Assembly (NCBI GenBank): GCA_020630715.1
Contig: JAHDIQ010000011.1
Span: 1-34,092, forward strand
DNA length: 34,092 bases
Reading direction: 5' to 3'
Source: Nonlabens sp.
GTDB lineage: Bacteria; Bacteroidota; Bacteroidia; Flavobacteriales; Flavobacteriaceae
In this document: positions 5,332 to 28,200 of the stretch, in pieces
How the letters are laid out: each line of letters starts with the position of its first letter
How positions within the stretch are numbered: position 1 is the first letter of the stretch
Translations under genes and position numbers: made by a program
The notes under the pieces: generated by a model
Told to the model about the DNA's origin: nothing
What the model saw: only the letters and a program-made list of their open reading frames with translations
Database searches by the model: none

Positions 5332-5345
5332 GCTTTCGCGAAAGC
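5332..5345. repeat. Palindrome GCTTTCGCGAAAGC, copy 1 (intergenic)
   Basis: Perfect 14-bp palindrome in the 135-nt gap between nhaB and exbB, followed by GTAAT on its right. It lies about 85 nt before the exbB ATG. No intrinsic terminator or clear promoter was found in this gap. Confidence 0.9.
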
Positions 5346-5430
5346 GTAATTAAAACAACCCATTAGTTAAAACAACAATTTTAAATTCATAGAGGCGTTA
5401 TCCTCATACAGTACTTTAATAATCTAACCT

Positions 5431-6117
5431 ATGATCCAAGAAGTAACAGAAGCTCAAGAAGCAGCACAACCGCTGGTAGAGGAAAAAACATTAACCCTAT
5501 ATGATTTAATTTTTAGCGGTGGACCTGCAGGTAGCGTCGTTATAGGAATCTTGATCGTTTTATTAGCAGTTGCCTTGTATATTTATTTTGAACGCTACTT
5601 TAAAATTAAAGGAAGTTCAAAGATTGATAAAAACTTCATGTTGCAGATTAAAGATCATGTTGCAAATGGTCGCATTGATGCGGCAAAAATCCTGTGCGCT
5701 CAAGAGAACTCACCAGTAGCTAGACTTACGGAAAAAGGAATAAGTCGTATAGGTTCACCGTTAGATGATATCAATGGCGCTATCGAAAATGCCGGAAGAT
5801 TAGAGATTTATAAATTAGAAAAAAACGTAAGTGTACTAGCAACTATTGCTGGTGTAGCACCTATGATAGGATTTTTAGGAACGGTTATAGGAATGGTACT
5901 TGCCTTTCATACACTAGCAACCAGTGAAGGTCAAGCAGAGATGGGAACACTGGCCGAAGGTATTTATACCGCGATGACTACTACGGTAGCAGGATTAATT
6001 GTAGGTATTATTGCTTACATGGGTTATAACCACCTTGTAGTAAAGACAGATAAAGTAGTGCACCAGATGGAATCTAATGCCATGGATTTCCTAGATCTTT
6101 TAAACGAACCTGCTTAG
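5431..6117 (+). CDS. exbB: ExbB/TolQ/MotA-family proton channel
   Basis: The 228-residue inner-membrane protein has three membrane segments: one near residues 33-53, and two in the C-terminal half, including LATIAGVAPMIGFLGTVIGMV and the GIYTAMTTTVAGLIVGIIAY stretch, which are the proton-channel signature of the family. With ExbD it uses the proton motive force to drive a TonB-type protein that powers outer-membrane receptors. The next gene starts 1 nt after its stop codon, and the order exbB-exbD-tonB is the standard Bacteroidetes one. TolQ is the alternative name; the TonB-like third gene argues for ExbB. Confidence 0.92.
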   Translation: MIQEVTEAQEAAQPLVEEKTLTLYDLIFSGGPAGSVVIGILIVLLAVALYIYFERYFKIKGSSKIDKNFMLQIKDHVANGRIDAAKILCAQENSPVARLTEKGISRIGSPLDDINGAIENAGRLEIYKLEKNVSVLATIAGVAPMIGFLGTVIGMVLAFHTLATSEGQAEMGTLAEGIYTAMTTTVAGLIVGIIAYMGYNHLVVKTDKVVHQMESNAMDFLDLLNEPA

Positions 6118-6118
6118 T

Positions 6119-6511
6119 ATGAATTTAAGAGGTAGAAATAAAGTTAGTCCAGAATTTTCAATGTCGTCCATGACAGATATTGTATTCTTACTGTTAGTAT
6201 TCTTTTTATTAACATCACCGTCTATAACGCCAGAAGCTCTAGATTTAATATTACCTAAAGCCAGCGGTAAAAGTTCTAATGTGCAAAATGCATCTGTAAG
6301 TATTTCAAAAGATGGACTGTTTTTTGTAAATGCAAAAGAAGTAGAAGAGACAGATCTTGAAAACCAAATACAACAAGTGATGGAAGGAAATGAAGATCCT
6401 ACCATCATGTTGCGAGCAGATGGTGATATCGCTTTAAATAAAGCAGTTAAAGTTATGGATATTGCAAATCGCAATAAGTTTAAAATTATCCTTGCGGTAA
6501 AACCTAACTAA
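6119..6511 (+). CDS. exbD: ExbD/TolR-family biopolymer transport protein
   Basis: A 130-residue protein with a short cytoplasmic start, one membrane helix (about residues 20-38) and a periplasmic domain. The helix contains the proton-carrying Asp20 in SMTDIVFLLLVFFLL, the counterpart of Asp25 of E. coli ExbD. The periplasmic part ends in TIMLRADGDIALNKAVKVMD, typical of the family. It lies 1 nt after exbB and 2 nt before the TonB-like gene, so the three are translated from one transcript. Confidence 0.92.
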   Translation: MNLRGRNKVSPEFSMSSMTDIVFLLLVFFLLTSPSITPEALDLILPKASGKSSNVQNASVSISKDGLFFVNAKEVEETDLENQIQQVMEGNEDPTIMLRADGDIALNKAVKVMDIANRNKFKIILAVKPN

Positions 6512-6513
6512 TT

Positions 6514-7335
6514 ATGGGCTATTTAGATACTAATGAAAAACGTAAAAGTGCTATCATTACTGGTAGTATAATGGCGGTTTTATTGTTGTTTTTCACCTTT
6601 GTATCAGTGCTTACTGAATTAGAAGAGCCAGAGGAAAGTGGTATTGCCATTAATTTTGGGAATACCGCCGTAGGTAGTGGACCAGTTGAAACAGCTAGAA
6701 CCACCAGAGTAAGTCCACCATCAAATCCAGAACCGCAAACACAACCTACACAGCAATCAGATAATGTGGCAACACAAGATAATACAGATGCACCAGTCAT
6801 CAATTCTGATCCTACGAATGACCGTCCAGTAGAAAAACCAGTGGAGAAACCGGTAGAAAAACCTGTAGAGAAAAAACCAGACCCTAAACCAGATCAAAAT
6901 GTGCTAGACGCATTAAATAGTGTCACAGGAGCAGATCCTGTAGATGGTGATACAGATACTGGAGAAGGACCAGGTGATGGACCAGGAAACAAAGGAGACA
7001 TTAATGGTGATCCTTATGCTAATACCTATTACGGTGATCCAGGAACTGGGCAAGGAGGAAAAGGATATGGCCTTAAAGGTCGTTCTAGAATAGGATACAC
7101 AGGTGTTTTACCTACCTGTGATGAAGAAGGAACTGTTGTAGTAGAAATTACCGTAAATAAGTTAGGTAAAGTAGTTAAAGCGGTGCCAGGTAAAAGAGGA
7201 ACTACTAATAGAGTTCAGTGCTTACTGGACGCCGCACGACAAACAGCCGAATCTTATAAATTTAGTCCTGCACGTGATGCGCGTAATGACTTTCAAATAG
7301 GATTTGTAGAAGTGATCTTTAAAGTAGGTGAGTAA
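6514..7335 (+). CDS. TonB-like energy transducer
   Basis: The 273-residue protein has the three-part TonB plan. A membrane anchor lies at about residues 14-34. A long Pro/Glu/Lys/Gly-rich periplasmic linker follows; it includes four VEKP units coded by four 12-bp near-repeats at 6826-6873, and a Gly/Asp-rich stretch. The C-terminal domain (about 190-273) reads CDEEGTVVVEITVNKLGKVV and ends in FKVGE, like the TonB C-terminal fold of Bacteroidetes. Position directly after exbB-exbD supports the role. It would carry energy from the inner-membrane ExbBD motor to TonB-dependent receptors. It is annotated without symbol because flavobacteria carry several such proteins. Confidence 0.85.
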   Translation: MGYLDTNEKRKSAIITGSIMAVLLLFFTFVSVLTELEEPEESGIAINFGNTAVGSGPVETARTTRVSPPSNPEPQTQPTQQSDNVATQDNTDAPVINSDPTNDRPVEKPVEKPVEKPVEKKPDPKPDQNVLDALNSVTGADPVDGDTDTGEGPGDGPGNKGDINGDPYANTYYGDPGTGQGGKGYGLKGRSRIGYTGVLPTCDEEGTVVVEITVNKLGKVVKAVPGKRGTTNRVQCLLDAARQTAESYKFSPARDARNDFQIGFVEVIFKVGE

Positions 7336-7338
7336 CCA

Positions 7339-8556
7339 TTGAATTATCAAGAGACTTTAGAATGGATGTTCCAGCAATTACCTATGTATCAACGCGTGGG
7401 GAAAGTCGCGTATAAACCTAATTTAGATAGAACCATAAAGCTAGATAACCATCTAGGAAATCCACATGAATCATACCCTACGATTCATGTGGCTGGAACT
7501 AATGGTAAAGGCAGCACCTGCCACATGATTGCTAGTGTCTTACAAGCTGCTGGTTATAAAGTAGGGTTGTATACGTCACCACATTTAAAGGATTTTAGAG
7601 AGCGTATACGCGTGAATGGCGAGGTATTTGAACAAGAATATGTCACTCAATTTATAAAAACACATAAATCCTTTTTTGAGCATGAAAAGCCATCCTTTTT
7701 TGAAATGACTGTAGGAATGGCATTTCAGTATTTTAAAGAGCAGCAGGTAGACATTGCGGTGATAGAAACTGGTCTAGGTGGTCGGTTAGATTCTACTAAT
7801 ATTATTACACCGCTAGTTTCTGTAATTACTAGTATTGATAAAGATCACACCGCAATATTGGGAAATACACTGGTGAAAATCGCCCGTGAAAAAGCAGGTA
7901 TTATTAAAAACAATATTCCTGTGGTTGTAGGTGAACGTAGAAGCTGGTTGAGATCTCGCTTTCGCGAAAGCGCAATACTCAAAAGCGCATCCTATCATCA
8001 AGTAAATCATCGCGTCACAGCACCACAGACTGATTTGAAAGGAAGCTACCAAAAGTATAATGCTAGAACAGCCTTTGAAGCGTTACAAGTGTTAAAAACG
8101 TCAAGTAAGTTCACGTTTACTCAAGAGCAATTCCAGTTAGGCATGCAACAAGTGGCTAAAACCACAGGATTAAGAGGTCGTTATGAACTATTGCAAGAAA
8201 ACCCTAGAATTATAGCAGAAACAGCGCACAATATCGTAGGAATAAAAACCTTATTGAGCCAACTCAAGAGTGAAACTTATAAACGATTACATATCGTAAT
8301 AGGAATGGTGTCTGATAAAGATGTTGACGCTGTGGTAAAATTATTACCTAAAGACGCGAACTATTATGTTACCGCACCAGATGTAGTCAGGGCAATGCCA
8401 GTAGAAAGATTAGAGGAGTTTTTTCAGAAATACGGATTGCAATTTTCTAGTTATGATCGTGTTAAAGAGGCCTTAGATGTAGCAACAAGACAAGCAAAGG
8501 ACAAAGATCTTATTATCGTCACAGGAAGTATGTTTGTAGTGGCAGAAGTTATTTGA
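7339..8556 (+). CDS. folC: Bifunctional folylpolyglutamate synthase/dihydrofolate synthase
   Basis: FolC adds glutamate to dihydropteroate and then extends the polyglutamate tail of folates in the cytoplasm. The Mur-ligase P-loop is HVAGTNGKGST (residues 50-60), followed by GLYTSPHLKDFRERI, the ETGLGGRLDSTN motif and VSVITSIDKDH. The start is a TTG at 7339, 3 nt after the previous stop codon: the encoded MNYQETLEWMFQQLPMYQRVG matches the usual N-terminus of flavobacterial FolC, and the first ATG would remove part of it. A copy of the dispersed palindrome lies inside the gene (7958-7971) and is translated as RFRES in a variable segment. Last gene of the exbB operon. Confidence 0.92.
   Translation: MNYQETLEWMFQQLPMYQRVGKVAYKPNLDRTIKLDNHLGNPHESYPTIHVAGTNGKGSTCHMIASVLQAAGYKVGLYTSPHLKDFRERIRVNGEVFEQEYVTQFIKTHKSFFEHEKPSFFEMTVGMAFQYFKEQQVDIAVIETGLGGRLDSTNIITPLVSVITSIDKDHTAILGNTLVKIAREKAGIIKNNIPVVVGERRSWLRSRFRESAILKSASYHQVNHRVTAPQTDLKGSYQKYNARTAFEALQVLKTSSKFTFTQEQFQLGMQQVAKTTGLRGRYELLQENPRIIAETAHNIVGIKTLLSQLKSETYKRLHIVIGMVSDKDVDAVVKLLPKDANYYVTAPDVVRAMPVERLEEFFQKYGLQFSSYDRVKEALDVATRQAKDKDLIIVTGSMFVVAEVI
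7958..7971. repeat. Palindrome GCTTTCGCGAAAGC, copy 2 (inside folC)
   Basis: Perfect copy, with outer C and G making 16 bp. In the folC frame it reads CGC TTT CGC GAA AGC (RFRES), a different frame from the copies inside xrtF and the arginase-like gene. Confidence 0.9.
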
Positions 8557-8573
8557 TTTTTTATAAAAATATA

Positions 8574-8604
8574 TTTGGATGTTATGATAAACGCTTTATA
8601 TTTG
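8574..8604 (+). promoter_or_regulatory. Promoter of tRNA-Val
   Basis: TTTG (8574-8577), 19 nt, then TATATTTG (8597-8604) is an almost ideal Bacteroidetes vegetative promoter. The tRNA begins 12 nt after the -7 box. Confidence 0.8.
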
Positions 8605-8616
8605 CATCCGCTTTTA

Positions 8617-8691
8617 GGGCGCGTAGCTCAGTTGGTTCAGAGCACTTGGTTTACACCCAAGGGGTCAGGGGTTCGAATCCCTTCGCGCCCA
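8617..8691 (+). tRNA. tRNA-Val (anticodon TAC)
   Basis: All four arms fold: acceptor GGGCGCG (8617-8623) with CGCGCCC (8684-8690); D arm GCTC/GAGC; anticodon stem CTTGG (8645-8649) with CCAAG (8657-8661), loop TTTACAC giving anticodon TAC at 8652-8654; T arm AGGGG/CCCTT around TTCGAAT. The discriminator is A at 8691, and CCA is not encoded. Anticodon TAC reads GUA and related Val codons. Confidence 0.97.
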
Positions 8692-8694
8692 CAG

Positions 8695-8726
8695 AAAGGT
8701 CTTCAGGAATGAAGACCTTTTTTTAT
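8695..8726 (+). terminator. Terminator of tRNA-Val
   Basis: A perfect 10-bp stem (8695-8704 with 8711-8720), a 6-nt loop and a T-run lie directly after the tRNA. Confidence 0.9.
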
Positions 8727-8799
8727 TTCCTTAGTTTTTGTTTTTTAAAAGTGATACTTTCTTTTTTTCAATGTAACCACATTTCACTAGCTTAGCATC

Positions 8800-9819
8800 A
8801 TGAAAATATTAGTAACAGGTGGTTTAGGATTTATAGGTTCGCATGTGGTGGTAGATTTATTACAACGTGACTATGAGGTATGTATCATTGATAATCTCTC
8901 TAATTCCTCTTTAAAAGTATTAGATTCTATTAAGACCATTACTGGTAAATCTCCTCATTTTGAAGAATTGGACTTGCGAGAGCGTGACAATGTAAGAGCT
9001 TATTTTAAAAGGCATCAGGATATTAACGGTGTGATTCATTTTGCAGCTTCTAAGGCAGTAGGAGAAAGTGTTGAAAATCCATTATTGTACTATGAAAATA
9101 ATGTGGGAACACTGGTGTACATCATGCAGGAATTAAGTAAGTTGGAGCAACGGCACTTGATTTTCAGTTCTTCATGTACCGTTTATGGTCAGGCAGATGA
9201 GCTTCCTATTACAGAAAATGCACCCGTAAAACCAGCCGAATCTCCTTATGGCAATACAAAACAAATAGGCGAAGAAATCATTAAAGACGTCTGTAAGGTG
9301 CAGCCAGATTTCTGTGCTATTGCATTACGATATTTTAATCCTATAGGCGCTCACAAAAGTTCTTTAATAGGTGAACTACCATTAGGGACACCTCAAAATC
9401 TTGTGCCTTATATTACCCAAACCGCTATGGGAATACGTGAGCAGTTATCTGTATATGGGGATGATTATCCTACTAGAGATGGAACCGCAATACGTGATTA
9501 TATTCATGTAGTAGATTTAGCAGCAGCTCATGTAGTAGCTTTAGAACGACTGATTCACAAAAAATCCAAAGCAAATTTTGAAACCTTTAATGTAGGAACT
9601 GGAACAGGTTCAACCGTTCTAGAAGTGGTTCAGGCTTTTCAAAAAGCCACTGGAGAATCTTTGAATTATAGAATTGTAGATCGTAGACCTGGTGATGTCA
9701 CTGCTGCTTATGCAGATACTACAAAAGTAAATTCAGAGTTAGGGTGGAAAGCTCAGTATTCACTAGAGGATTCGTTAGAAAGTGCCTGGAATTGGGAAAA
9801 AGCAGTGCGTAAGGAATAA
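8800..9819 (+). CDS. galE: UDP-glucose 4-epimerase
   Basis: GalE interconverts UDP-glucose and UDP-galactose (or the GlcNAc/GalNAc pair) in the cytoplasm, feeding galactose use and surface polysaccharide synthesis. The 339-residue SDR protein has the NAD-binding TGGLGFIGSHVV (6-17), the SSSCTVYG segment, the catalytic Tyr150-x3-Lys154 in SPYGNTKQIGEE, and GTAIRDYIHVVDLA near the C-terminal substrate domain, all typical of GalE. It sits alone after the tRNA-Val terminator. Its stop codon directly abuts the stop codon of the convergent gene on the other strand. Confidence 0.93.
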   Translation: MKILVTGGLGFIGSHVVVDLLQRDYEVCIIDNLSNSSLKVLDSIKTITGKSPHFEELDLRERDNVRAYFKRHQDINGVIHFAASKAVGESVENPLLYYENNVGTLVYIMQELSKLEQRHLIFSSSCTVYGQADELPITENAPVKPAESPYGNTKQIGEEIIKDVCKVQPDFCAIALRYFNPIGAHKSSLIGELPLGTPQNLVPYITQTAMGIREQLSVYGDDYPTRDGTAIRDYIHVVDLAAAHVVALERLIHKKSKANFETFNVGTGTGSTVLEVVQAFQKATGESLNYRIVDRRPGDVTAAYADTTKVNSELGWKAQYSLEDSLESAWNWEKAVRKE

Positions 9820-10869: not shown

Positions 10870-11403
10870 TTGAATAAACTGCGTCCATATTATCCTATTT
10901 TTAAATTTGTAGCCGTTTTTGGAGGTGTTTACCTACTGCTTTCTATGTGCTACTACTTCTATTTGAATCAGGATTATAGAGGTCTTAATTATCCAGATCC
11001 AGTGACTTCGCAAGTAGCTTATCAAACACAACAGCTTCTTAATCTTACCAGTTATGAAGCTCATATTTTTAACACTTCTGGGCATCCATCTGTTTTTATG
11101 TATGTAAATAAACAAGGCGTTTATAGGGTCATAGAAGGTTGTAACGCGATGAGCGTAATGATTCTATTTGTTAGTTTTGTTCTCGCTTTCGCGAAAGCGT
11201 GGAAAAAAACAGCTCTATTCATTCTATCCGGTTTAATACTAATTTATATTGTCAACGTACTAAGGCTCGTGGCTCTTGCCATTATTAAGTACGAATATCC
11301 AGAATACGATCATATATCACACGAAATTTTATTTCCAGTAGTGATTTACGGAATGGTCATTTTATTGTGGTTATACTGGATTAAATCACCTATAAAGTCA
11401 TGA
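10870..11403 (+). CDS. xrtF: Exosortase family protein XrtF
   Basis: Exosortases are multi-pass inner-membrane transpeptidase-like enzymes that process C-terminal sorting signals. This 177-residue protein has a first membrane helix at about 12-29 and three more in the C-terminal half. The three expected catalytic residues are in place: Cys91 in VIEGCNAMSVMILF, Arg132 in VNVLRLVAL, and His151 in HISHEILFPVVIYG. Length and motifs fit the flavobacterial XrtF subfamily, as does the partner gene that overlaps it by 4 nt. The start is a TTG at 10870, placed just behind a -7 box; the first ATG would remove the first membrane helix. A palindrome copy lies in the gene (11185-11198), translated as AFAK. 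No protein in the window shows a PEP-CTERM-like C-terminus. Confidence 0.88.
   Translation: MNKLRPYYPIFKFVAVFGGVYLLLSMCYYFYLNQDYRGLNYPDPVTSQVAYQTQQLLNLTSYEAHIFNTSGHPSVFMYVNKQGVYRVIEGCNAMSVMILFVSFVLAFAKAWKKTALFILSGLILIYIVNVLRLVALAIIKYEYPEYDHISHEILFPVVIYGMVILLWLYWIKSPIKS
11185..11198. repeat. Palindrome GCTTTCGCGAAAGC, copy 3 (inside xrtF)
   Basis: Perfect copy within xrtF, read as GCT TTC GCG AAA GCG (AFAKA) between two membrane helices. Confidence 0.9.
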
Positions 11404-11846
11404 CCATTCAGCGCATTTTTTCTACTATAGCGACCGTTGTTTTGGTCATAGGAATTGTACTGATACGTTATTTTGAAGTATCATTATTTCAAGATCCGTT
11501 GAATGATTATTTTCATTCAGATTTTCAAAACTTTCCTATTCCTGATATTGACTTATGGAAAACTGTATTTTCCACGAGCTTGCGGTTTTTAATGAATATG
11601 GTGCTATCCTTATGGATTCTTTGGTTCTTATATAAACGAGAAGACTACCTCAAAGCATCGTTATGGGTATTCCTATTTGCATTTATAATTCTAATGTTAG
11701 CATTTATAACACTAGTACAATTAGATGGTCAATGGGTTAAAATGGCATTATTCTATGTACGTAGATTTTTAATTCATCCGCTATTGCTGTTTATTTTGGT
11801 AGCAGGATGTTACTTTTTAAAAACTAGAAATAAGAAACTGACTTAA
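11400..11846 (+). CDS. Exosortase F system-associated protein
   Basis: A 148-residue membrane protein with about four hydrophobic helices (roughly 5-23, 58-78, 85-107, 125-141). Conserved-looking polar features inside the membrane region include SLRFLMNMVLSLWILWFLYKR and the YVRRFLIHPLLLF stretch. Its ATG overlaps the xrtF stop (ATGA), and small membrane proteins of this type are the known fixed partner of XrtF in flavobacteria. The function is not known; a chaperone or subunit role for XrtF is only inferred. Its TAA shares the four bases TTAA with the stop codon of the convergent sulfatase-like gene. Confidence 0.82.
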   Translation: MTIQRIFSTIATVVLVIGIVLIRYFEVSLFQDPLNDYFHSDFQNFPIPDIDLWKTVFSTSLRFLMNMVLSLWILWFLYKREDYLKASLWVFLFAFIILMLAFITLVQLDGQWVKMALFYVRRFLIHPLLLFILVAGCYFLKTRNKKLT

Positions 11847-13297
11847 TCTACTTTCTGTAGAACAGACTTATTTTGATCATCGTAATATTTGTAGACACCT
11901 TTTTCAGATCCGTGTTTAATGATCTGGTAAGAACTATTATCTCTATCTGGAATACTAGAGTCACTTAAAGAATTGAACAACCTAGGGAATAAATTAATAC
12001 TGGTGTCAGGTAAAGAATCAGATGTAACCGTATATGGGATTTTAATGGCGTACAAACTGCCAAATATTGCTTGTTTTAACTTGATGTCCTTAGTAGTAGA
12101 AATCATGGATTCTTCTGTATAATTATATCCTACATAACCGCCATGATCTGCTGCTATAATGATGATAGCTTTTGGGTCACGTTGTTCTATATTAGTTACT
12201 AATTCTAGTAATTGTGAGTTGGTGTACTGAAGCTTTTTGATATAATTATTACGCTCTTTAAATTGATCAGAGTTTGCGTTTTTCTTACCTGTGATGTGGC
12301 TAGGTTCAAGAATTTCGATAAAATAAAATTGAGGGTTTTGATTAGCTTTACTCATTAATTGTTTTAAATCGCCTAGATAATCAGCATTGTAATGATAGTT
12401 AGGTAATGCTGTTAAATCTGTGGTTTCAATGTTGATGCGATCATAAAATACTTCTGGATGGTTTAATAATAGGTAGCGGTGCTGTAGGATTGCTGTAGTA
12501 TAATATCCGTTGTTTTTTAAAAGGTTTAATACTGGATTTTTACCCATTATTAATTCTCGGGCTTCAGGTAATTCACTTTCCATATTCCCATTATTATAGT
12601 AATGATGTTGCGCCGTGAATAAGGTAGCATTAGAAGTCAATGTAGAACCATAATTACTTCGGTAATCGTGATTAAACATAAAACCTTTTGTACTTAATGC
12701 ATTATAAAATGAGCTGTTGTTAAACTTGTAATACTCATTTTCTAAAGCAACTTTACTTGCATAGCCATCTGGCTGTATAAAGTAAATGTTAGGTTTTTGC
12801 TTTAGTTCTATATTATCAAATACGCTAATATCTACCCAATTATTTGAATTACTGGATTGAGTGATGTAAGTAAAACCAAATTTTACCACACTAAAAACAA
12901 TCATTATACCCAGAAGTACTATAAACTTCTTATAGTGCTTTCCTAGAAACCAACTCAACCCTAAAATAATTACTCCAGCTAGGATTAGTGCTTTCCATCG
13001 CCAGCCCATATAAATTACAACAGATAAATTGATGGCCGTAAGAATGAAAAATAGGCTAGAATAAATGAAATTCTTGAGTTGATCACTTTGCTTTTTAATG
13101 AGTATGGAAACACCTAGAATCATTAAAGATGGTACTACCATCATCCATAAAATAAACCTAGAAAATTGATACCATGAATTAACTAGGTAATAATTCTTTG
13201 TATACAAATAAGTGATTGCATATAAGCCTGGTAGTAAGCTTATGAGCCACCAGTAGTGCTTATTATTGTTAAGATATGTAATGATCTTAGTTCTCAT
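11843..13297 (-). CDS. Membrane-anchored sulfatase/alkaline-phosphatase-fold enzyme
   Basis: The 484-residue protein begins with five hydrophobic helices (about 16-33, 47-66, 77-96, 102-118, 124-144) and continues with an exported sulfatase-like domain. That domain has an early metal-ligand motif NIYFIQPDGYAS (Asp177), a candidate Ser/Thr nucleophile region NYGSTLTSNATLF (about 215-227), and the late metal-ligand motif IIIIAADHGG (Asp384, His385). This plan resembles lipoteichoic-acid synthase and phosphoethanolamine transferases, which move head groups onto surface polymers or lipids. There is no Cys-x-Pro-x-Arg formylglycine motif, so a true sulfatase is unlikely. It overlaps the upstream methyltransferase gene by 11 nt. 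The substrate is unknown. Confidence 0.8.
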   Translation of the reverse strand: MRTKIITYLNNNKHYWWLISLLPGLYAITYLYTKNYYLVNSWYQFSRFILWMMVVPSLMILGVSILIKKQSDQLKNFIYSSLFFILTAINLSVVIYMGWRWKALILAGVIILGLSWFLGKHYKKFIVLLGIMIVFSVVKFGFTYITQSSNSNNWVDISVFDNIELKQKPNIYFIQPDGYASKVALENEYYKFNNSSFYNALSTKGFMFNHDYRSNYGSTLTSNATLFTAQHHYYNNGNMESELPEARELIMGKNPVLNLLKNNGYYTTAILQHRYLLLNHPEVFYDRINIETTDLTALPNYHYNADYLGDLKQLMSKANQNPQFYFIEILEPSHITGKKNANSDQFKERNNYIKKLQYTNSQLLELVTNIEQRDPKAIIIIAADHGGYVGYNYTEESMISTTKDIKLKQAIFGSLYAIKIPYTVTSDSLPDTSINLFPRLFNSLSDSSIPDRDNSSYQIIKHGSEKGVYKYYDDQNKSVLQKVD

Positions 13298-14654
13298 TGC
13301 GTTGCAATAAGTATAGGGTTCTATGTGATCCTTTAATTTCTTGACGTTTTAAAATCTTAAAATGATCCAGATATACTCGTTCAAAATCTGCCTTGTTATA
13401 ACCGTCAAAAAGAGATCTAGCTTCTCGTTTGCTATCCAGTAAGAAATTTACCCAACTGTCATTTCTGTCTGGAAATTCTATAATCAGATACTCGCTTAGT
13501 GATGTAAAAAATGGAGCACTCATTTCAAAAGGTACATTGCCAGAAATGGTTAGATGATGGATGATGGCTAGTGCCATGTGCACATCTGCTTTGTAATCTT
13601 TTAGTCTGTTTATGAATGCGTCTCGTTCCTTATTGTTAAATCCTATCGCAGCTACAGGTTGTAACAAGTCTATTACTAGGCTAGTCATTTTATGACCTTT
13701 AAGCGATTTTTTATAGCTTGCATCAATCGCGCTTTGATCTATATCACATATAAGTGCCTGATCTATCTGATCAATGATTTCATTACAAAAGGTTCCGTCA
13801 TTACCACCTAAATCAACCACCTTTTTTGCCTGAAGATCATGGATCCATTCTTTAATCAAGCTTTTTTTAGCAGTGAAAGATGTATCATCATAATTAGTTT
13901 GCTGGTAATAGTGACTCCATTGCGTATTTTCTTTAAGCTCTAAATTTCCTATATATTGATCCAGCGATTTTAAAATTTTTAATTGACCAACTTTACTTAG
14001 TTGTTTTTTAGAATCTGTTGTTTTTTTACCTGTAGTAGTGTTCTGTTGTTTACCTAGATAATGAATGTGTGCATAAATCGTAGGATTTAATTTGCTATGC
14101 CATGGTAATAAAGTGGCAGCATCTTTAAGAGGTAACCCATTAATATGATGTTGCAATGTTTTTAAATGTTGACTTCCGTAGTATTTAGATAGAATTAGTG
14201 GTGCTAGAAAATGCTCATTAAATTGCTGAAGTGCTTTCCATGGTTCACCGTCTTTATAAGTTTCAATACTTAAAGTGTCTATAAAAATCGCTTTCCCTTT
14301 TTGAAAAGTTACATTAAATGCGCTAGCATCTTTTAGGCAAAATCCATGTTCTAGCAATAACATTTGAATACGTAAAGTGAGTTGGGCAGCATGCTTATAC
14401 GCTGTAAAACTCCACTCGTATGGATAGGTTATAAACTCTAATTGTTCTGGTTTTAATATAATTTCATGCTCATTTCTATATATCTCTTCATGTGGAATGA
14501 GCCATTTTTTACTCCATAACAATTCATAAACTTTTGCGGTAACTATAGCATCATATTCATTAAAGTAACTAGGTGTTATCTTTCTATAAATACGATCATC
14601 TTCTTTGTAGATATATCCAGATGGATCGCGGTAAGAGGCAGGATGCCTTTTCAT
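13287..14654 (-). CDS. Two-domain protein: kinase-like N-terminus and SAM methyltransferase
   Basis: This 455-residue cytoplasmic protein has two parts joined by a polar linker (about 202-222, rich in Thr, Lys and Ser). The C-terminal part has a class I SAM-binding motif, VVDLGGNDGTF (279-289), with an acidic strand ICDID (302-306), and resembles methyltransferases of the NoeA-like nodulation group. The N-terminal part has GFCLKDASAFNVTFQKGKA and then FIDTLS: Asp109 and Asn114 keep the D-x4-N spacing of a kinase catalytic loop and Asp126 sits where a metal-binding DFG Asp would be. A kinase-like fold there is my inference. The gene starts on the last base of the upstream stop codon and overlaps the sulfatase-like gene, so all three work from one transcript. 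Confidence 0.78.
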   Translation of the reverse strand: MKRHPASYRDPSGYIYKEDDRIYRKITPSYFNEYDAIVTAKVYELLWSKKWLIPHEEIYRNEHEIILKPEQLEFITYPYEWSFTAYKHAAQLTLRIQMLLLEHGFCLKDASAFNVTFQKGKAIFIDTLSIETYKDGEPWKALQQFNEHFLAPLILSKYYGSQHLKTLQHHINGLPLKDAATLLPWHSKLNPTIYAHIHYLGKQQNTTTGKKTTDSKKQLSKVGQLKILKSLDQYIGNLELKENTQWSHYYQQTNYDDTSFTAKKSLIKEWIHDLQAKKVVDLGGNDGTFCNEIIDQIDQALICDIDQSAIDASYKKSLKGHKMTSLVIDLLQPVAAIGFNNKERDAFINRLKDYKADVHMALAIIHHLTISGNVPFEMSAPFFTSLSEYLIIEFPDRNDSWVNFLLDSKREARSLFDGYNKADFERVYLDHFKILKRQEIKGSHRTLYLLQRNEN

Positions 14655-14929: not shown

Positions 14930-14943
14930 GCTTTCGCGAAAGC
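14930..14943. repeat. Palindrome GCTTTCGCGAAAGC, copy 4 (intergenic)
   Basis: Perfect copy between the protease stop codon and its terminator, so it would be transcribed as a short hairpin in the 3' untranslated region. Confidence 0.9.
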
Positions 14944-14964: not shown

Positions 14965-17436
14965 CTACTTAGGATCTAGAATCATATCAATACGTTCTGC
15001 TAAATCTTCTAAATGAATCTTAGACATCGTGTCGCTGGTGCGACTAGTTGCTCTACGAGTATCACGTAGTAATTGCTTTAATTCTGCTCTTACGATAGGT
15101 CTGATATCACTTTGCTCTACATCAATAGAACTACCGCCAAATCTCGCACGAGGTTGCTCATTATTCATAATGAATTCTAAACGTTCTACATAAGCACGCT
15201 GTAAATTACGACGGTAACGATCTATGGTTTTACCTCTGGATAGTTCACTAAATAAACCTTTACGCAAATCTTGCATCATTTCTAGTAGTCCGTAAGCAGT
15301 ACTACCGTTAACTTCTTCGTTTTCCATCAAACGTGCCATACGTCCAAAATCAAGTACACTGTTCAAAGAACGCACCTGAACACCACGTAAACGTTCAATA
15401 GCACCATCACTTTCAAATTTGTTAAAGATATTCTGGTCTATTAACCATTCTGGTGTGGTGAATAATTGCTCTTGTAAGAATTTCATCGCTCTAGTTTGCT
15501 TATCACGAGATGCATGTTCATAAACAGCACCTTCCTGGCCGTAAGCCTTATAAGTCTCTTTTACTCCACCTATGTTGCCAGCTACATGACCCATGTATCT
15601 GTTGTACTGTCCTAATACCTGACCGTACATCGTTTCTAGATCATCATAGTTTTCTCCTTCTTTCCCAGTCCACTTGATAAGGTTAGGGACAATACGCTTT
15701 AGATTACGGATACCATAGTCGCTGGCGCGCATGGAATCATCTCCTAAATCTTCTGTTTGACTTGTGTGGTCTATTACACCAAATTGCTGACGACCGAAAC
15801 GGTACATAGGGTCACCGGCTTTTTCCATAATCCACTGATCTAGAATAGGTTTTTCTTCTTCGGCAGTTTTATCTAAAATAGGCTTGTAACCCCACATGAT
15901 GGAATATTTATCATACGGTCCTATATTAGGCATTAATGCAACATCTCCATCACCTGGTTGTGCAACATAGTTAAAACGCGCATAGTCCATTATAGAAGGA
16001 GCGGTTCCATACTTTTTAGTAAATTCAGGATCGCGTAGATCTTCTACAGAATATGCTACAGAGCTTCCCATGTTGTGAGGTAATCCTAATGTGTGACCTA
16101 CTTCATGTGAACTTACAAAACGGATTAATCTTCCCATTACTTCTTCGTCAAATTCAGTAGACTGTGCATCTGGATTAATAGCTGCAGTTTGTACAAAGAA
16201 CCAATTACGTAGTAAAGTCATTACGTTATGATACCAATTGATGTCAGATTCTAAAATCTCACCACTACGAGGATCACTTACGTGTGGTCCATTTGCATTA
16301 GGAATAGGTGAAGCTAAATAACGTACTACACTGTAGCGTACATCTTCTGGACTCCAGTCTGGATCTTCTTCCTTGCTAGGCGGATCTGCAGCGATGATTG
16401 CATTTTTAAATCCTGCTGCTTCAAAAGCAACTTGCCAGTCTTCAATACCTTGTTTGATGTACTTACGCCATTGCATAGGTGTTGCAGGATCGATGTAATA
16501 CACGATCTGTTTTTTAGGCTCTACTAACTCGCCACGTTCAAAGGCTGCGCGATCTTCATCTTTAACTTCCAGTCTCCATCTGTCTAGATAGCGTACTGTT
16601 TTTGTCTCCTGTGCATCTAAACCATAGTCCTGTTGTCCACGAGCAAACCATCCTACACGCTGGTCAAAATAGCGACGCTTCATAGGTTCTTTAGGAAGTA
16701 ATATCATAGAATTACTCATTTCTAAAGTAATAGATCCTGTGCTAGAATTAGATGGAGGAGAACTTGCTAAATAAGTTTTTACGTGTCTAGATTCTATGTT
16801 CAATGGGTACGAACGTAAGGTGTCAATATAAGAACGTTTGTCATCTAATCTACTAGCTTTATATCTAGTACGTGCTCTTTTAGGAAATCCTATGGATGGT
16901 ACATCTTTAGAAAAGAAATCTGTAACATCTATCACAAGATTATTATTGCTATTTACAGTATCCTTTTTAATTGCTTTAATAGGGAACGAGTAAAGAATAG
17001 GTTCAAAATTTGAATTTTCTACAGCCATGCTTACAGGTAGAGAATCTGCAGCAACTACCTGATGGGAGACCACTCTTAATAAGATGTTGTCATTTTTACG
17101 TTGCCATCTCAAAACCTCTGTGTTTTGTTTTCCACCACCGAAACCTAATCCAGATGCAGTTTTTGCAATACGAGTTACCATTAACATTTCACGATCTAGT
17201 AAAGAGTCTGGTATCTCATAAAAATAATTCTGATCTACCTGGTGTACCGTAAATAATCCTTCATCACTTTTAGCTTTTTTAGTGATTACTTTAGCATAAG
17301 GTTGGATACCACCTTTCTTTGGTTTTTTCTTTGCCGCAGCAGCGGTAGGTGCTTTTTTACTCGATTTTTTTGCTCCACAGCTCACAGTGATTGTCGCAGC
17401 AAAAAGCAGTAAAAAACAAATTTTAATTAATTTCAT
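14965..17436 (-). CDS. Zinc-dependent metalloprotease lipoprotein (DUF5117/DUF4953 type)
   Basis: The 823-residue protein has a lipoprotein signal peptide ending in ITVSC (Cys20), then a Lys/Ala-rich stretch (22-41). A long beta-rich domain is followed by a metzincin-like zinc site SHEVGHTLGLPHN, with His444, Glu445, His448 and His454 all intact. The Met-turn is probably Met483 in SIMDYARF. Domain order and length match the large Bacteroidetes metalloproteases annotated with DUF5118, DUF5117 and DUF4953. It should be a surface- or periplasm-facing protease; its substrate is unknown. It has its own terminator; no convincing promoter was seen in the gap before it. Confidence 0.88.
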   Translation of the reverse strand: MKLIKICFLLLFAATITVSCGAKKSSKKAPTAAAAKKKPKKGGIQPYAKVITKKAKSDEGLFTVHQVDQNYFYEIPDSLLDREMLMVTRIAKTASGLGFGGGKQNTEVLRWQRKNDNILLRVVSHQVVAADSLPVSMAVENSNFEPILYSFPIKAIKKDTVNSNNNLVIDVTDFFSKDVPSIGFPKRARTRYKASRLDDKRSYIDTLRSYPLNIESRHVKTYLASSPPSNSSTGSITLEMSNSMILLPKEPMKRRYFDQRVGWFARGQQDYGLDAQETKTVRYLDRWRLEVKDEDRAAFERGELVEPKKQIVYYIDPATPMQWRKYIKQGIEDWQVAFEAAGFKNAIIAADPPSKEEDPDWSPEDVRYSVVRYLASPIPNANGPHVSDPRSGEILESDINWYHNVMTLLRNWFFVQTAAINPDAQSTEFDEEVMGRLIRFVSSHEVGHTLGLPHNMGSSVAYSVEDLRDPEFTKKYGTAPSIMDYARFNYVAQPGDGDVALMPNIGPYDKYSIMWGYKPILDKTAEEEKPILDQWIMEKAGDPMYRFGRQQFGVIDHTSQTEDLGDDSMRASDYGIRNLKRIVPNLIKWTGKEGENYDDLETMYGQVLGQYNRYMGHVAGNIGGVKETYKAYGQEGAVYEHASRDKQTRAMKFLQEQLFTTPEWLIDQNIFNKFESDGAIERLRGVQVRSLNSVLDFGRMARLMENEEVNGSTAYGLLEMMQDLRKGLFSELSRGKTIDRYRRNLQRAYVERLEFIMNNEQPRARFGGSSIDVEQSDIRPIVRAELKQLLRDTRRATSRTSDTMSKIHLEDLAERIDMILDPK

Positions 17437-17526: not shown

Positions 17527-17540
17527 GCTTTTACGAAAGC
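17527..17540. repeat. Degenerate palindrome copy GCTTTTACGAAAGC
   Basis: Twelve of 14 bases match the dispersed palindrome; the two changed bases are in the centre. It lies between the groEL terminator and the protease gene. The gap 17437-17564 otherwise shows nothing I can name. Confidence 0.5.
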
Positions 17541-17620: not shown

Positions 17621-19303
<1,683 letters not shown>

Positions 19304-22704: not shown

Positions 22705-24177
22705 TTAATCGTTTTCTATAGTAAGTGGTCCAGCCATATCACTATATCCTACGGCTTCACCTATTAACGTAGCGCTAGTACAATCTGTAACTTTTACCAT
22801 TACAAATTCACCTACTTTATAATCATCTTTAGGGAAAATAGTCATGTAATTTTGGGTGTTTCTACCAGCCCAATGTTGGTCAGATCTTTTAGACTCTTTT
22901 TCAATCAATACTTCAACCGTTTTACCTAAAAAGAATTGAGCTCTTTCTAATCCTGTACGGCGTTGCACATCTATAATTTCATTAAGACGTCTTTTCTTCA
23001 CGTCTTCAGGAACATCATCTTCCATTTTACGAGCAGCCATAGTTCCAGGACGCTCACTGTAGGCAAACATAAAGCCGTAATCATACTTTACGTATTCCAT
23101 AAGGCTTAAGGTGTCCTGATGATCTTCTTCTGTTTCTGTAGGGAATCCAGAGATCATATCTTGAGAAACCGCACAGTTAGGAATAATAGCATGAACGCGA
23201 TCTATCAGTGCCATGTATTCTTCACGAGTATGAAGACGATTCATTTCCTTTAATATTCTGTTGCTACCAGATTGAACCGGTAAGTGAATATAGTTACAAA
23301 TATTACGATGTTGTGCTATGGCATGCAACACATCATCACTAATATCTTGTGGATTACTAGTAGAAAAGCGTACGCGTAAATTAGGTTGCGCCGCTGCTAC
23401 CATGTGTAATAATTGCGCAAAGTCTACCGCAGTAGCTTGTTGCATAAGACTTGCTTTTTTGAAATCTTTCTTTAAGCCACCACCATACCATAGGAATGAA
23501 TCTACATTCTGTCCTAAAAGTGTTACTTCTTTAAATCCTTTACTTACTAAATCTGCTATTTCTTCAAGAATACTTTGTGGATCACGACTGCGTTCACGTC
23601 CACGAGTAAAAGGGACTACACAAAAAGTACACATATTATCACAACCACGAGTAATAGAAACAAACGCCGTTACACCATTTGAATTTAAACGTACTGGCGC
23701 AATATCTCCATAAGTCTCTTCTTTAGAAAGAATTACATTCACAGCGTCGCGTCCTTCATCAACTTCGGCAACTAGGTTAGGTAAGTCCTTGTAAGCATCT
23801 GGTCCTACGACCATGTCTACAATTTTTTCTTCTTCTAGAAATTTTGCCTTTAAACGCTCGGCCATACAGCCTAGAACGCCTACTTTCATATTAGGATTTT
23901 GCTCGCGCTTTACACGATTGTATTTCTCTAATCGCTTACGCACCGTTTGCTCTGCTTTGTCGCGTATAGAGCAAGTATTTACTAGCACTAAATCTGCTTC
24001 TTCCAGACGGTTTGTGGTGTTAAAACCTTCTTTAGCCAGAATAGAAGCTACGATCTCACTATCAGAAAAATTCATCTGACAGCCGTAACTTTCTATAAAT
24101 AACTTACGAGTATTTGACGCCTTTGACTCTAGTTTAAGTGTCGTTCCTTGTTTCTCTTCTTCAATAATCTTTTCCAT
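22705..24177 (-). CDS. miaB: tRNA-2-methylthio-N6-dimethylallyladenosine synthase MiaB
   Basis: MiaB is a radical-SAM methylthiotransferase that makes ms2i6A at position 37 of tRNAs. The 490-residue protein has the N-terminal UPF0004 domain with the auxiliary iron-sulfur cysteines Cys33 (SYGCQMN), Cys69 (VNTCS) and Cys104 (GCMAE). The radical-SAM CxxxCxxC motif is Cys179/Cys183/Cys186 in [10 protein letters not shown], and a C-terminal TRAM domain follows (about 418-485). First gene of the miaB-secG operon, with a -7 box just upstream. Confidence 0.97.
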
Positions 24178-24210: not shown

Positions 24211-24290
24211 GTAATTTCATTAATTTAATGACATATTGGCAGTAAAGTTGTTTTAATCAGACTTTTTCGTTTAATGATTAGGTGGTTGTT

Positions 24291-24316
24291 TATTACGCTT
24301 TCGCGAAAGCGTAATA
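24291..24316. repeat. Palindrome GCTTTCGCGAAAGC, copy 6 (extended to 26 bp)
   Basis: The 14-bp core (24297-24310) is extended on both sides by TATTAC and GTAATA, making a perfect 26-bp palindrome with no spacer. It lies near the middle of the miaB-topA gap, away from both -7 boxes. Confidence 0.92.
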
Positions 24317-24511
24317 CAAAAAGAAGTTTACCTCATTATACAATTGAATAAAGCAAAATCATTCATAAAAACGCACCTTAGATATCTAATCTAAATATAA
24401 ATGATTATTGTCCTTAATATATAACCAGCAGTAGTTAAGAGGATTATGAATACTAATAAAGTTTTAAAACATTGATTTACAACGATTTATAGTATTAAAA
24501 AAAAATACGCA

Positions 24512-24519
24512 TACCTTTG
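24512..24519 (+). promoter_or_regulatory. -7 box TACCTTTG of topA
   Basis: TACCTTTG fits TANNTTTG and lies 21 nt before the topA ATG. No good -33 TTG lies at the right distance. Confidence 0.5.
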
Positions 24520-24540
24520 CAATCTTCAAAAACAGCATGA

Positions 24541-27039
24541 ATGGCTAAGAATTTAGTAATCGTTGAGTCGCCTGCAAAGGCAAAAACCATAGAAAAGTTT
24601 TTAGGAAAAGACTTTAAAGTAGTAAGTAGTTTTGGTCACATTGCAGATCTTCCTGCAAAAGAGCTAGGAGTGGACGTGGATAAGGATTTCAAGCCTAAAT
24701 ATGTCGTTAACGCAGATAAAAAAGATCTGGTTAAAAAACTTAAGAAATTAGCTGCAGAGTGTGATATCGTATGGCTAGCTAGTGATGAGGATCGTGAAGG
24801 AGAAGCCATTGCATGGCACCTGGCAGAACAACTAGATCTAAAACCAGAGAATACAAAACGTATTGTTTTTAACGCCATCACAAAAAGTGCAGTACAAAAC
24901 GCTATTGATAATCCAGGCCATATAGACTATGATCTTGTAAATGCACAGCAAGCGCGTCGCGTATTAGATCGTATCGTGGGATATGAAATATCTCCTATAT
25001 TATGGAGAAAAGTAAAAGGTGGTGCCAGTGCTGGTCGTGTACAATCAGTTGCTGTGCGATTAATTGTAGAGCGCGAGAACGAAATCTTAAACTTTAAGAG
25101 TAAGAACTTTTTTAGAATAGATGCAGAATTTCTTGCAGATGGAAAAACACTTAAAGCTAAATTACCAGGTAACTTAGACTCTTTTAAAGAGGCTCAAGAT
25201 TTTCTAAATCTTAATAAAGAAGCTTCTTTTGAAGTTGCAGATCTGGTTAAAAAGCCTGCTAGTAAATCTCCAGCGCCACCATTTACCACTTCAACTTTAC
25301 AACAGGAAGCTTCTAGAAAGTTATTTTTTAATGTAAGTCGTACCATGCAACTTGCACAACGTTTGTATGAAGCTGGTCTTATTACATATATGAGAACAGA
25401 TTCTGTAAACTTAAGTAAGGAAGCAAAAAAAGGTGCGCAGGATGAAATAACAAATGCTTACGGTAATGAATACCATAAAGAGCGTAATTATAAAGGAAAG
25501 TCTAAAGGTGCTCAAGAAGCACATGAGGCGATACGTCCTACTAACTTTGCTGTGCATAGTGCTGGTGCAGATCGTGATCAGATTAGATTATATGAATTGA
25601 TCTGGAAGCGAGCGATCGCCAGCCAGATGAGTGACGCAAAATTGGAGCGTACTAATGTTACCGTTGCCGCATCTACACATGACAAGAATTTCACAGCAAA
25701 TGGTGAGATCGTAAAGTTTGAAGGATTCCTAAAAGTATATCTAGAAAGTACTGATGATGAAGATCTAGAACAACAAGGTTTATTACCACCACTAAGAATA
25801 GGGCAATCACTTTCTAAGAAAAAAATTACGGCTACAGAGCGTTTCACAAGACCACCTTATCGTTTTAGCGAGGCATCATTAGTAAAAGCATTAGAAGAAT
25901 TAGGAATAGGACGTCCATCTACCTATGCACCTACGATTACGACGGTGCAAAACCGTAAATATGTAGAAAAAGGAACTTCGCTAGGAACAGAACGCAGTTA
26001 TAAACAACTAGTTCTTAAAGATGCTACCATTGAAGAAAAAGAGCTGACAGAAAAAACAGGATCTGATAAAGGGAAATTGATTCCTACAGATGTAGGTCGT
26101 GTGGTAAATGACTTTTTAGTAGAGCATTTCGGGAACATCCTAGATTACAACTTTACCGCAAAAGTAGAGCAGTCCTTTGATAACATTGCAGAAGGAAAAG
26201 AGGAATGGACAGATATGATGAATCATTTCTATAAAGATTTCCATCCTAAAGTAAAAGACGTTGCAGAAAATGCAGAACGTGAAGTAGGAGAGCGCGTGCT
26301 AGGAACTGATCCAGCAACTGGTAAACCTATCAGTGTGCGTTTAGGACGTTTTGGTGCTATGGCACAAATAGGAACGGTAGAAGATGAAGAGAAACCGCAA
26401 TTTGCGAGTTTACTTCCTAGTCAGTCTTTAAATACCATTACTTTAGAAGAAGTGATGGACTTATTTAAATTACCTAGAACACTAGGAGAATACAAGGGTC
26501 ATCCAGTTGAGGTAAATCAAGGTCGTTATGGACCTTACGTAAAGTTTAATGAAAAAACCTTTGTATCACTAGAAAGCACAGATGATCCTATGACCATCAC
26601 TTTTGAACGTGCTGGTGAGTTGATCCAAATGAAAGAAAAAGCAGATGCTCCTATATATATGTATGATGAGCAACCAGTTACAAAAGGTGTAGGGCGTTTT
26701 GGCCCGTTTATTAAATGGGCGGGAATGTTTATCTCTGTAAATAAGAAATATGATTTTGATAATTTATCTAATGATGATATCGAGCAATTGATTAAAGATA
26801 AAATTCAGAAAGAAAAAGATAAATTAATTGTAGACTGGGAAGATGAAGGTATACGTATTGAGAAAGCGCGCTGGGGAAGACATAATATTATTAAAGGAAA
26901 AACAAAAGTAGAACTTGCAAAAACGGTAGATCCTTTAAAAATCACCCTAGAAAAAGCAAAAGAGTTAATAGCAAAAAAAGCTCCTAAGAAAAAAGCTACC
27001 CGTAAAAAAGCAACTAAAAAAACGACCAAGAAGAAGTAA
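24541..27039 (+). CDS. topA: DNA topoisomerase I
   Basis: TopA relaxes negative supercoils by cutting one strand. The 832-residue type IA enzyme has the TOPRIM domain with VESPAKAKTI and the metal-binding DEDREGE (82-88), the catalytic Tyr283 in GLITYMRTDS, and FTTSTLQQEASRK in the active-site region. The C-terminal third carries repeated GRFGPFIKW/GRYGPYVKF-type units and ends in a Lys-rich tail (about 812-832). There are no Cys4 zinc fingers of the E. coli type. The next gene begins directly after its stop codon (TAAATG). Confidence 0.97.
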   Translation: MAKNLVIVESPAKAKTIEKFLGKDFKVVSSFGHIADLPAKELGVDVDKDFKPKYVVNADKKDLVKKLKKLAAECDIVWLASDEDREGEAIAWHLAEQLDLKPENTKRIVFNAITKSAVQNAIDNPGHIDYDLVNAQQARRVLDRIVGYEISPILWRKVKGGASAGRVQSVAVRLIVERENEILNFKSKNFFRIDAEFLADGKTLKAKLPGNLDSFKEAQDFLNLNKEASFEVADLVKKPASKSPAPPFTTSTLQQEASRKLFFNVSRTMQLAQRLYEAGLITYMRTDSVNLSKEAKKGAQDEITNAYGNEYHKERNYKGKSKGAQEAHEAIRPTNFAVHSAGADRDQIRLYELIWKRAIASQMSDAKLERTNVTVAASTHDKNFTANGEIVKFEGFLKVYLESTDDEDLEQQGLLPPLRIGQSLSKKKITATERFTRPPYRFSEASLVKALEELGIGRPSTYAPTITTVQNRKYVEKGTSLGTERSYKQLVLKDATIEEKELTEKTGSDKGKLIPTDVGRVVNDFLVEHFGNILDYNFTAKVEQSFDNIAEGKEEWTDMMNHFYKDFHPKVKDVAENAEREVGERVLGTDPATGKPISVRLGRFGAMAQIGTVEDEEKPQFASLLPSQSLNTITLEEVMDLFKLPRTLGEYKGHPVEVNQGRYGPYVKFNEKTFVSLESTDDPMTITFERAGELIQMKEKADAPIYMYDEQPVTKGVGRFGPFIKWAGMFISVNKKYDFDNLSNDDIEQLIKDKIQKEKDKLIVDWEDEGIRIEKARWGRHNIIKGKTKVELAKTVDPLKITLEKAKELIAKKAPKKKATRKKATKKTTKKK

Positions 27040-28200
27040 ATGTCCCTAGAGTTTATTCAGCCAGTAAGTGATGTTGCTCAGGCACACGCCATGTTGCAAC
27101 CACAGCGTACCATAGGTAGAAGTATAAACATACATACCTCTCATACGGGAATGCCAGATCTTAAAAACGTGCAACTTGCATTGATAGGATTACTGGAAAA
27201 CCGTCGTGATGAAAATTCCTTACAACAGTTAAAATCTGTTGATCAGGTGCGTAAACAGTTTTATGAATTATATCCAGGGAACTGGACTTCATCCCTTGTT
27301 GATCTAGGAGATGTCCATGCAGGTGATCAGGTAGATGATACGTATTACTTAGTAAAAAACGTTACTACTCAATTATTAGTTAAGAACATCATCCCTATAT
27401 TTTTAGGCGGTAGTCAGGATCTTATGTATCCTATATATAGATCATTTGATGATATACAAAACATGATTAATGTGGTGAATATTGATTCTAGGTTTGATCT
27501 AGGAGATATTGAAGCTCCTATTAGCTCACGCAGTTATGTAGGTAAAATGGTTACAGATCAACCGTACAATTTATTTAACTATAGCAATCTAGGTTACCAG
27601 ACCTATTTTAATTCTCAAGATGAGATTGATTTACTAGATCGCATGTATTTTGATGCAATACGATTAGGTACCTTAGATGCAGATATCTCACTTTCAGAGC
27701 CTGTGTTGCGAGATGCAGATGTAGTAGGTTTTGATATAGGAGTGATAAAAGCAGGTGATACCGCTTTCGCGAAAGCGTATCCAAATGGCCTTACTGGTAA
27801 GAACGCATGCCGTTTATCGAGATATTCAGGAATCAGTGATCGATTAAAAGTATTTGGAATTTTTGAGATTCCGATAGATGAATCTGTGACGGGTTCTCAA
27901 TTGATTGCTGAGATGATTTGGTATTTCATCGAGGGATTTAACTATAGGTCGGGAGAATACCCGTTAATCATCGATGAAAGTTATGTTAAATATCGAGTTC
28001 CTATAGAAGATGAAGTGCTAACATTCTATAAATCAATGGAAACGGGAAGGTTCTGGATTGAATTGCCTTTTATTTCTCATGTTAATAATAAATTAAAACA
28101 AAGGACGTTATTACCTTGTAATCGCCAAGACTATGAAATGGCTTGTGATCAAATTATGCCTGATCGATGGTTAAAAGCGAGAAGAAAAAACGAAGTTTAA
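27040..28200 (+). CDS. Arginase/formiminoglutamase-fold protein with degenerate metal site
   Basis: The 386-residue protein aligns with the ureohydrolase (arginase, agmatinase, HutG) fold, and such proteins are usually annotated as formimidoylglutamase in flavobacteria. The three metal-ligand motifs are visible but altered. GG-D/N-H becomes GGSQD (His to Gln126). D-x-H-x-D becomes DSRFD at 149-153 (His to Arg151). The D-x-D motif becomes FDIG at 231-234 (second Asp to Gly234). Three of six ligands are therefore lost, so a classic binuclear Mn hydrolase is unlikely. It starts directly after the topA stop codon and lies 112 nt before gldK. A palindrome copy is inside it (AFAK). Confidence 0.85.
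   Translation: MSLEFIQPVSDVAQAHAMLQPQRTIGRSINIHTSHTGMPDLKNVQLALIGLLENRRDENSLQQLKSVDQVRKQFYELYPGNWTSSLVDLGDVHAGDQVDDTYYLVKNVTTQLLVKNIIPIFLGGSQDLMYPIYRSFDDIQNMINVVNIDSRFDLGDIEAPISSRSYVGKMVTDQPYNLFNYSNLGYQTYFNSQDEIDLLDRMYFDAIRLGTLDADISLSEPVLRDADVVGFDIGVIKAGDTAFAKAYPNGLTGKNACRLSRYSGISDRLKVFGIFEIPIDESVTGSQLIAEMIWYFIEGFNYRSGEYPLIIDESYVKYRVPIEDEVLTFYKSMETGRFWIELPFISHVNNKLKQRTLLPCNRQDYEMACDQIMPDRWLKARRKNEV
27763..27776. repeat. Palindrome GCTTTCGCGAAAGC, copy 7 (inside arginase-like gene)
   Basis: Perfect copy, read in frame as GCT TTC GCG AAA GCG (AFAKA), directly after the altered FDIG motif. Confidence 0.9.

Follow-up and report, generated by a model that had tools for sequence, protein, structure and literature searches.

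The window analyzed here is a 34,092-nucleotide stretch of a Nonlabens sp. genome (contig JAHDIQ010000011.1; G000:C12:1-34092), and our subject is a 14-base palindrome that it carries in seven perfect copies. Our results showed that this palindrome, GCTTTCGCGAAAGC, forms the center of a longer DNA site with dyad symmetry, which recurs every ~4–8 kb in Nonlabens, in Dokdonia-titled records, and in one more genus (G211). The site is probably a docking site for a DNA-handling protein. As to its role we put forward, with more doubt than confidence, a bidirectional Chi-like signal for double-strand-break repair.

Abundance and strictness of the palindrome

The whole genome (G000; 2,978,537 bases, 17 contigs) contains 609 perfect copies, one per 4.9 kb, and no copy of the reversed control word. 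In a sample of 402,649 bases (20 stretches and the window), we found 79 perfect copies and 12, 7, and 8 copies with one, two, and three mismatches. Markov models of orders 1 to 4 predict at most 0.002 perfect copies in this sample, and a model of order 5 predicts 0.26; the expectations of orders 6 and 7 (14.9 and 62.7) are high because those orders absorb the motif itself. An earlier sequence-only reading of the window had proposed a genome-wide signal of the general kind of HIP1 (highly iterated palindrome 1), to be given up if the count were no higher than a Markov model predicts. The excess over the control and over orders 1–5, together with the counts across the genus, bears this proposal out.

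Near-misses are rare in Nonlabens. A 400 kb sample of a second genome of the genus (G004) had 83 perfect copies, with 7, 0, and 16 at one, two, and three mismatches. The corresponding figures in 200 kb samples were 50 perfect and 7, 12, and 17 in G227 (Dokdonia sinensis), and 26 perfect and 12, 12, and 26 in G211, where the word therefore looks looser. Half-sites outside full sites were close to expectation or up to about twofold above it. In a table of PMC1939737, the 4.64 Mb of Escherichia coli are listed with 1008 exact and 8855 one-mismatch copies of Chi, an uptake sequence with 438 and 947, and a form of HIP1 with 5648 and 1830; the comparison with these words is only rough, since word lengths differ. 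When 20 motif-poor genomes were sampled at 20 kb, no 14-base palindrome made up of real bases was present in more than one copy; the G122 sample contains masked bases.

The extended site and its placement

The symmetrised flank in G000 reads, up to the core, A (0.73), T (0.80), T (0.74), A or T (0.79), and C (0.84); C is commoner at −2 and −3 in G004. On the 5′ side of the core on each strand, to about −20, C is scarce and T and G are abundant. The G+T fraction at −15 to −6 was 0.72 in 64 intergenic Nonlabens sites and 0.70–0.72 in every reading frame, 0.66–0.69 in G227, and 0.61 in G211, and farther out (−59 to −46) it was 0.49–0.54. The T of the intergenic Nonlabens arms follows a three-base period that none of 5,000 shuffles equalled; the period recurs in genic arms in frames f0 (0/5,000) and f2 (16/5,000) and in G227 (37/5,000 and 17/5,000). 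The two arms did not covary at −6 to −30, and a slight residual excess was seen at −1 to −5 (9/500 shuffles as high). Given flanks that are symmetric and arms that do not covary, the site looks as if it is read as DNA by a factor with two-fold symmetry and not as an RNA hairpin, and we infer that this factor is a protein.

Copies are found both within and between genes. In the G000 sample, 48 of the 79 lie within genes, where every frame and either strand is used, and 31 lie in intergenic DNA, which makes up ~11% of the total; genes here are long open frames picked by script, and counting open-ended frames gives 49 genic and 30 intergenic copies. Only two of the 31 intergenic copies are between convergent genes. 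The frame-0 reading of the motif, AFAKA, was seen near some protein starts, where a signal peptide would end (L016-L026, C1 7540 and 104679; L035, 1667). Judged from such translations, the site seems to lodge in parts of proteins that tolerate it.

The spacing of the sites is even. Along 220 kb of contig C1 there are 42 sites; the gaps between them have a coefficient of variation of 0.455, and the shortest is 1,394 bases. Neither figure was matched in 20,000 random placements, whether or not these favored intergenic DNA. When sites are counted in 20-kb stretches, the counts of G000 (p 0.006) and G227 (p 0.04) show under-dispersion, and those of G004 (p 0.10) and G211 (p 0.21) tend in the same direction without being significant. 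G004 has gaps as small as 109 bases and one site-free 20-kb stretch (L207; G004:C1:195001-215000) of low G+C and strong GC skew, which is perhaps recently acquired DNA. Across 20 stretches of G004, site density showed no significant trend with distance from the parS region (rho −0.36, p 0.12), and an origin- or terminus-biased distribution was rejected.

Distribution among genomes

All 23 genomes of the genus that were examined carry the palindrome, in 288–857 copies; named ones are Nonlabens antarcticus (G002, 611), N. ulvanivorans (G019, 566), N. xiamenensis (G021, 553), N. xylanidelens (G022, 664), and Flavobacteria bacterium BBFL7 (G008, 551). In a sample of 397 genomes of the family, six were rich in copies, 74 had 1–19, and 317 had none. 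Four of the six rich genomes belong to the genus, and the others are G211 (408 copies) and the D. sinensis genome (857). Nine records titled Dokdonia, selected for carrying the extended motif, had 570–905 copies, and records titled Patiriisocius, Tenacibaculum, and Ulvibacter had 19, 2, and 16. A scan with a long-flank pattern returned 47 rows, 42 with Nonlabens or Dokdonia titles and two more titled Flavobacteria bacterium BBFL7; the pattern required Nonlabens- or Dokdonia-like flanks, so the result is silent on sites with other flanks.

In a topoisomerase I tree of 27 rows, the motif-rich genomes form one clade (100/98) with a single motif-poor member, G108, whose five copies all lie within 22 kb. 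The starred branches of this tree force two changes, and hence one gain and one loss or two gains. A folC tree of the same number of rows disagrees: there the motif-rich genomes are not grouped and four changes are needed. We trust it less because one Nonlabens row falls outside its genus in it.

Origin of the copies and selection on them

Alignments of orthologous genes show that copies arise by point substitution. The site within folC (7958..7971) aligns without gaps to species that lack it, and in G211 a separate site lies some eight bases off. It is perfect at the same place in 6 of 11 congeners, and its conservation window is at an unremarkable 67th percentile. Other places are kept better. 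The 14-mer in the anhydro-N-acetylmuramic acid kinase gene, decayed in the window (2072..2085, two mismatches, TCTTTCGCAAAAGC), is free of mismatches at the corresponding position in 8 of 11 species, with third positions 0.95 identical against 0.45 gene-wide, and outdoes 99.7% of windows. The site within the arginase/HutG-like gene (27763..27776) is perfect in three of four species (99th percentile of windows), and that within xrtF (11185..11198) in five of eight (91st percentile).

At several places, then, the aligned sequences indicate that the site is held against the drift of the surrounding silent positions; sites are partly kept individually and also turn over. The sequence-only reading had claimed that selection or spread acts on the DNA and not on the protein. 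The genome and genus counts, the Markov excess, and the aligned orthologous sites support selection on the DNA, and relatives retain several of the copies at matching positions, as that reading demanded.

Copies in phages and mobile DNA

From 10 motif-poor genomes we retrieved 20 loci surrounding copies; being selected for holding copies, these loci are biased upward. Fifteen of them, with 34 of the 43 copies, have long homologous stretches in common, at 69–99% identity, which in L043 encode efflux pumps, metal ATPases, and a copper oxidase. At one place of this island, the site is perfect in eight of nine spanning loci, with flanks averaging 0.78 identity over the eight, and is missing from L049. 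The metal-efflux and copper-oxidase region is common to different genera (L036-L055) at up to 99% identity, which appears to be a sign of recent transfer. The 14-mer may serve as a tag of transferred DNA, as 34 of the 43 copies in these motif-poor loci accompany shared metal-efflux genes.

Sixteen virus records, chosen for holding at least one copy and including several near-copies of one another, contained 47 copies in 369,599 bases. L294 and L298 contain head, portal, or tape-measure genes, and L107 contains a head protease gene; among the matches listed, many further single hits may be due to chance. The lytic Nonlabens phages P12024S and P12024L, whose annotation includes ERF and YqaJ recombination genes, have no copy in 71,352 bases, a length that would hold ~15 at the density of the host. 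The sites are therefore not needed for phage infection.

Possible function

The sequence-only reading had left the choice between a nucleoid protein, a methyltransferase, and a repair system, and of these we lean towards repair or recombination. In the bidirectional Chi-like reading, an AddAB-like helicase-nuclease, or a factor cooperating with it, would reach the palindrome from either side and cease degrading. Whichever strand survives, its 3′ tail would be T/G-rich and C-poor up to the site, a make-up that would suit RecA loading, and recombining DNA would gain from carrying the site. The T/G-rich side is then expected to be 5′ on both strands, a three-base phase is allowed, and even spacing would follow because a break should never be far from a site. 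The full form of the proposal is a palindromic Chi-like element, evenly set across a clade and common to some phages and mobile islands, at which break-processing would halt whichever side it comes from, leaving RecA a 3′ tail in both directions that is T/G-rich and in part triplet-phased. This form we hold to be doubtful.

RecA holds three bases per monomer, and we count the strand-specific G+T flanks, the three-base T phase, and the even spacing in favor of the Chi-like reading. Some phage contigs and the mobile island carry the site, and P12024S and P12024L, with their own ERF and YqaJ genes, do not; this was counted on the same side. According to PMC3763553, RecA prefers TGG repeats, and the density of one site per 4.9 kb is like that of E. 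coli Chi in the table of PMC1939737. An enzyme of the RecBCD or AddAB kind, which Chi requires, is represented by an AddB-like nuclease in 28 of 28 genomes examined, AddAB being named from size and arrangement only. RecBCD was rejected as the enzyme, as RecC was found in none of 80 genomes. In density, in the T/G-rich make-up of the prospective 3′-tail strand, and in the presence of an AddB-like nuclease, the site resembles Chi.

Several results weigh against this reading. Known Chi sequences are polar words of 5–8 bases, whereas the present site is a much stricter perfect palindrome of 14 bases that could fold on itself as a single strand; we therefore say that it may work like Chi, not that it is Chi, and a response of the enzyme to it is hypothetical. 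The AddB-like nuclease is equally present in motif-poor genomes, and the site is without a direct link to any enzyme. An AddB tree, in which a branch (63/78) sets the motif-rich rows apart, hinted at replacement of AddB in G108, the motif-poor genome within the clade; this was rejected, as approximately unbiased tests gave no sign that AddB changed with motif loss (p 0.48 and 0.40). The three-base T phase is absent in frame f1 (18 sites; 4,393/5,000 shuffles as high) and in G211 (26 sites; 1,958/5,000), and ~39% of copies are intergenic.

The main rival, not very likely in itself, is a chromosome-organising protein (a nucleoid or anchoring factor) that binds the sites as a dimer and splits the chromosome into ~5 kb domains. 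Dyad symmetry with extended flanks, even spacing, selection on single sites, and a density without significant dependence on parS distance would all suit such a protein, which alone leaves unexplained both the strand-specific T/G-rich flanks and the sites on the island and on phage contigs. The sole class tested, an extra ParB/Noc paralogue, was rejected as the reader since it does not track the motif: 2 of 16 motif-rich genomes have a second ParB_N match, as do 3 of 24 motif-poor ones, and parS pairs exist separately. Kinship to parS and Noc sites, to whose shape the sequence-only reading had seen a loose likeness, was not supported. The palindromic TTTC...GAAA shape is alike; the inner half-sites are 2 bases apart here versus 4, there are hundreds of copies besides separate parS sites, no extra ParB-family protein goes with the motif in carriers, and neither a match to parS with clustering near the origin nor exclusion from a region was borne out, G004 showing no significant trend along its length. 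Three genomes, G006 (C1 1269093), G017 (C1 2891885), and G042 (C1 781633), encode an additional ParB_N protein of greater length (frame of 599–616 aa); both motif-rich and motif-poor genomes are among them.

A DNA uptake signal like those of Pasteurellaceae and Neisseriaceae, in which site-bearing DNA is preferentially taken up and copies accumulate by molecular drive, we consider unlikely. Even spacing and intergenic excess are reported for uptake sequences in PMC1939737, substitution origin, decaying variants, and presence in transferred DNA fit as well, and ComEC is present in 32 of 32 genomes examined. ComEC is, however, as common in motif-poor genomes; the T2SS/T4P/Tad motor family (type II secretion, type IV pilus, tight adherence) exceeded its cut-off in just 3 of 15 carriers and, among motif-poor genomes, in 3 of 17, and with the motor missing in 12 of 15 carriers, uptake driven by type IV pili was rejected. 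According to PMC1939737, the known uptake sequences are not palindromes, and near-misses are scarcer in Nonlabens (12:79 and 7:83) than the 947:438 of its uptake sequence, although word lengths differ. Less probable again is a word that a DNA methyltransferase and mismatch repair create or maintain, the model that PMC4390886 proposes for HIP1. Like the cyanobacterial HIP1, our site is a perfect palindrome far above compositional expectation, in very high copy across related genomes, and both genic and intergenic. Unlike HIP1, it is 14 and not 8 bases long, its flanks are extended and strand-specific, its copies are evenly spaced, and its nested word TCGCGA is not in excess outside full sites in G000 (49 versus 51.4 expected) and only slightly so in G004 (29 versus 23.6) and G227 (31 versus 29.1), so that a nested methylation site was rejected. 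Nor are one-mismatch copies concentrated at the ends, where only 7 of 26 have their mismatch in the first or last base, in contrast to HIP1 in PMC4390886. A small mobile palindrome (of the repetitive extragenic or miniature inverted-repeat kind, REP/MITE) or an RNA hairpin such as a terminator would account for palindromy, copy number, and the 31 intergenic copies, and is highly improbable: copies align without insertion to species lacking them, most are genic and in all frames, and few lie between convergent genes. A hairpin or terminator was rejected, as the arms do not covary past the neighbors of the core.

The site thus belongs to the iterated palindromes and is not a member of the Chi, uptake sequence, parS/Noc, or REP families. 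By form it is nearest to HIP1 and differs from it in length, strictness, flanks, and the lack of nested-word excess. Chi, KOPS (FtsK-orienting polar sequences), and uptake sequences each opened a mechanism once their function was known, and HIP1 is still debated; the present palindrome is longer and stricter, is evenly spaced, and shows evidence of selection at the DNA level. Named carriers in Nonlabens and Dokdonia, the motif-poor G108 inside the clade, and phages of both kinds, site-bearing and site-free, open the question to direct tests. If the Chi-like reading is true, one site would work from both sides, at even intervals over a whole bacterial clade, and would be common to some phages and islands. 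We found no description of the 14-mer in the open-access literature (subscription journals were mostly outside the search) and no open-access report of highly iterated palindromes in Flavobacteria. The 10-base core appears in open-access papers, none of which concerns such a motif by its title and the start of its abstract.

Copies in the window

All seven perfect copies (5332, 7958, 11185, 14930, 19280, 24297, and 27763) and the 12/14 copy reported in the sequence-only reading were recovered at their positions, and three lie within genes as it described: that of folC is read RFRES, and those of xrtF and the arginase-like gene AFAKA. The folC and xrtF calls are above NCBIfam cut-offs; the host gene at 27763 is above the Pfam Arginase cut-off and below the hutG NCBIfam one. 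With up to three mismatches allowed, 0.67 matches are expected in the window, and the 10 found were reached in none of 100 shuffles.

The other perfect copies are intergenic. The site at 5332..5345 is between nhaB (3799-5295) and a TolQ/ExbB-like gene (5431-6117), and a site occurs at a comparable distance beyond nhaB in G019, G020, G017, G004, G022, and G010. The copy at 14930..14943, between two minus-strand genes (13287-14654 and 14965-17436), has a counterpart at a comparable distance in G003, G008, and G019. A third (19280..19293) is 19 bp upstream of a groEL-type chaperonin gene (17621-19261, minus), and the last (24297..24310) separates the divergent radical-SAM/TRAM (22705-24177, minus) and topoisomerase I (24541-27039, plus) genes. 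Of the weaker matches, the intergenic 12/14 copy at 17527..17540 (GCTTTTACGAAAGC) is possibly a remnant, and the 11/14 copy at 33368..33381 (three mismatches) is possibly a chance match.

Two adjacent minus-strand genes of the window (11843-13297 and 13287-14654) had no Pfam match at 1e-5. A tRNA-like sequence was spotted by eye between folC and an epimerase gene (~8640-8712).

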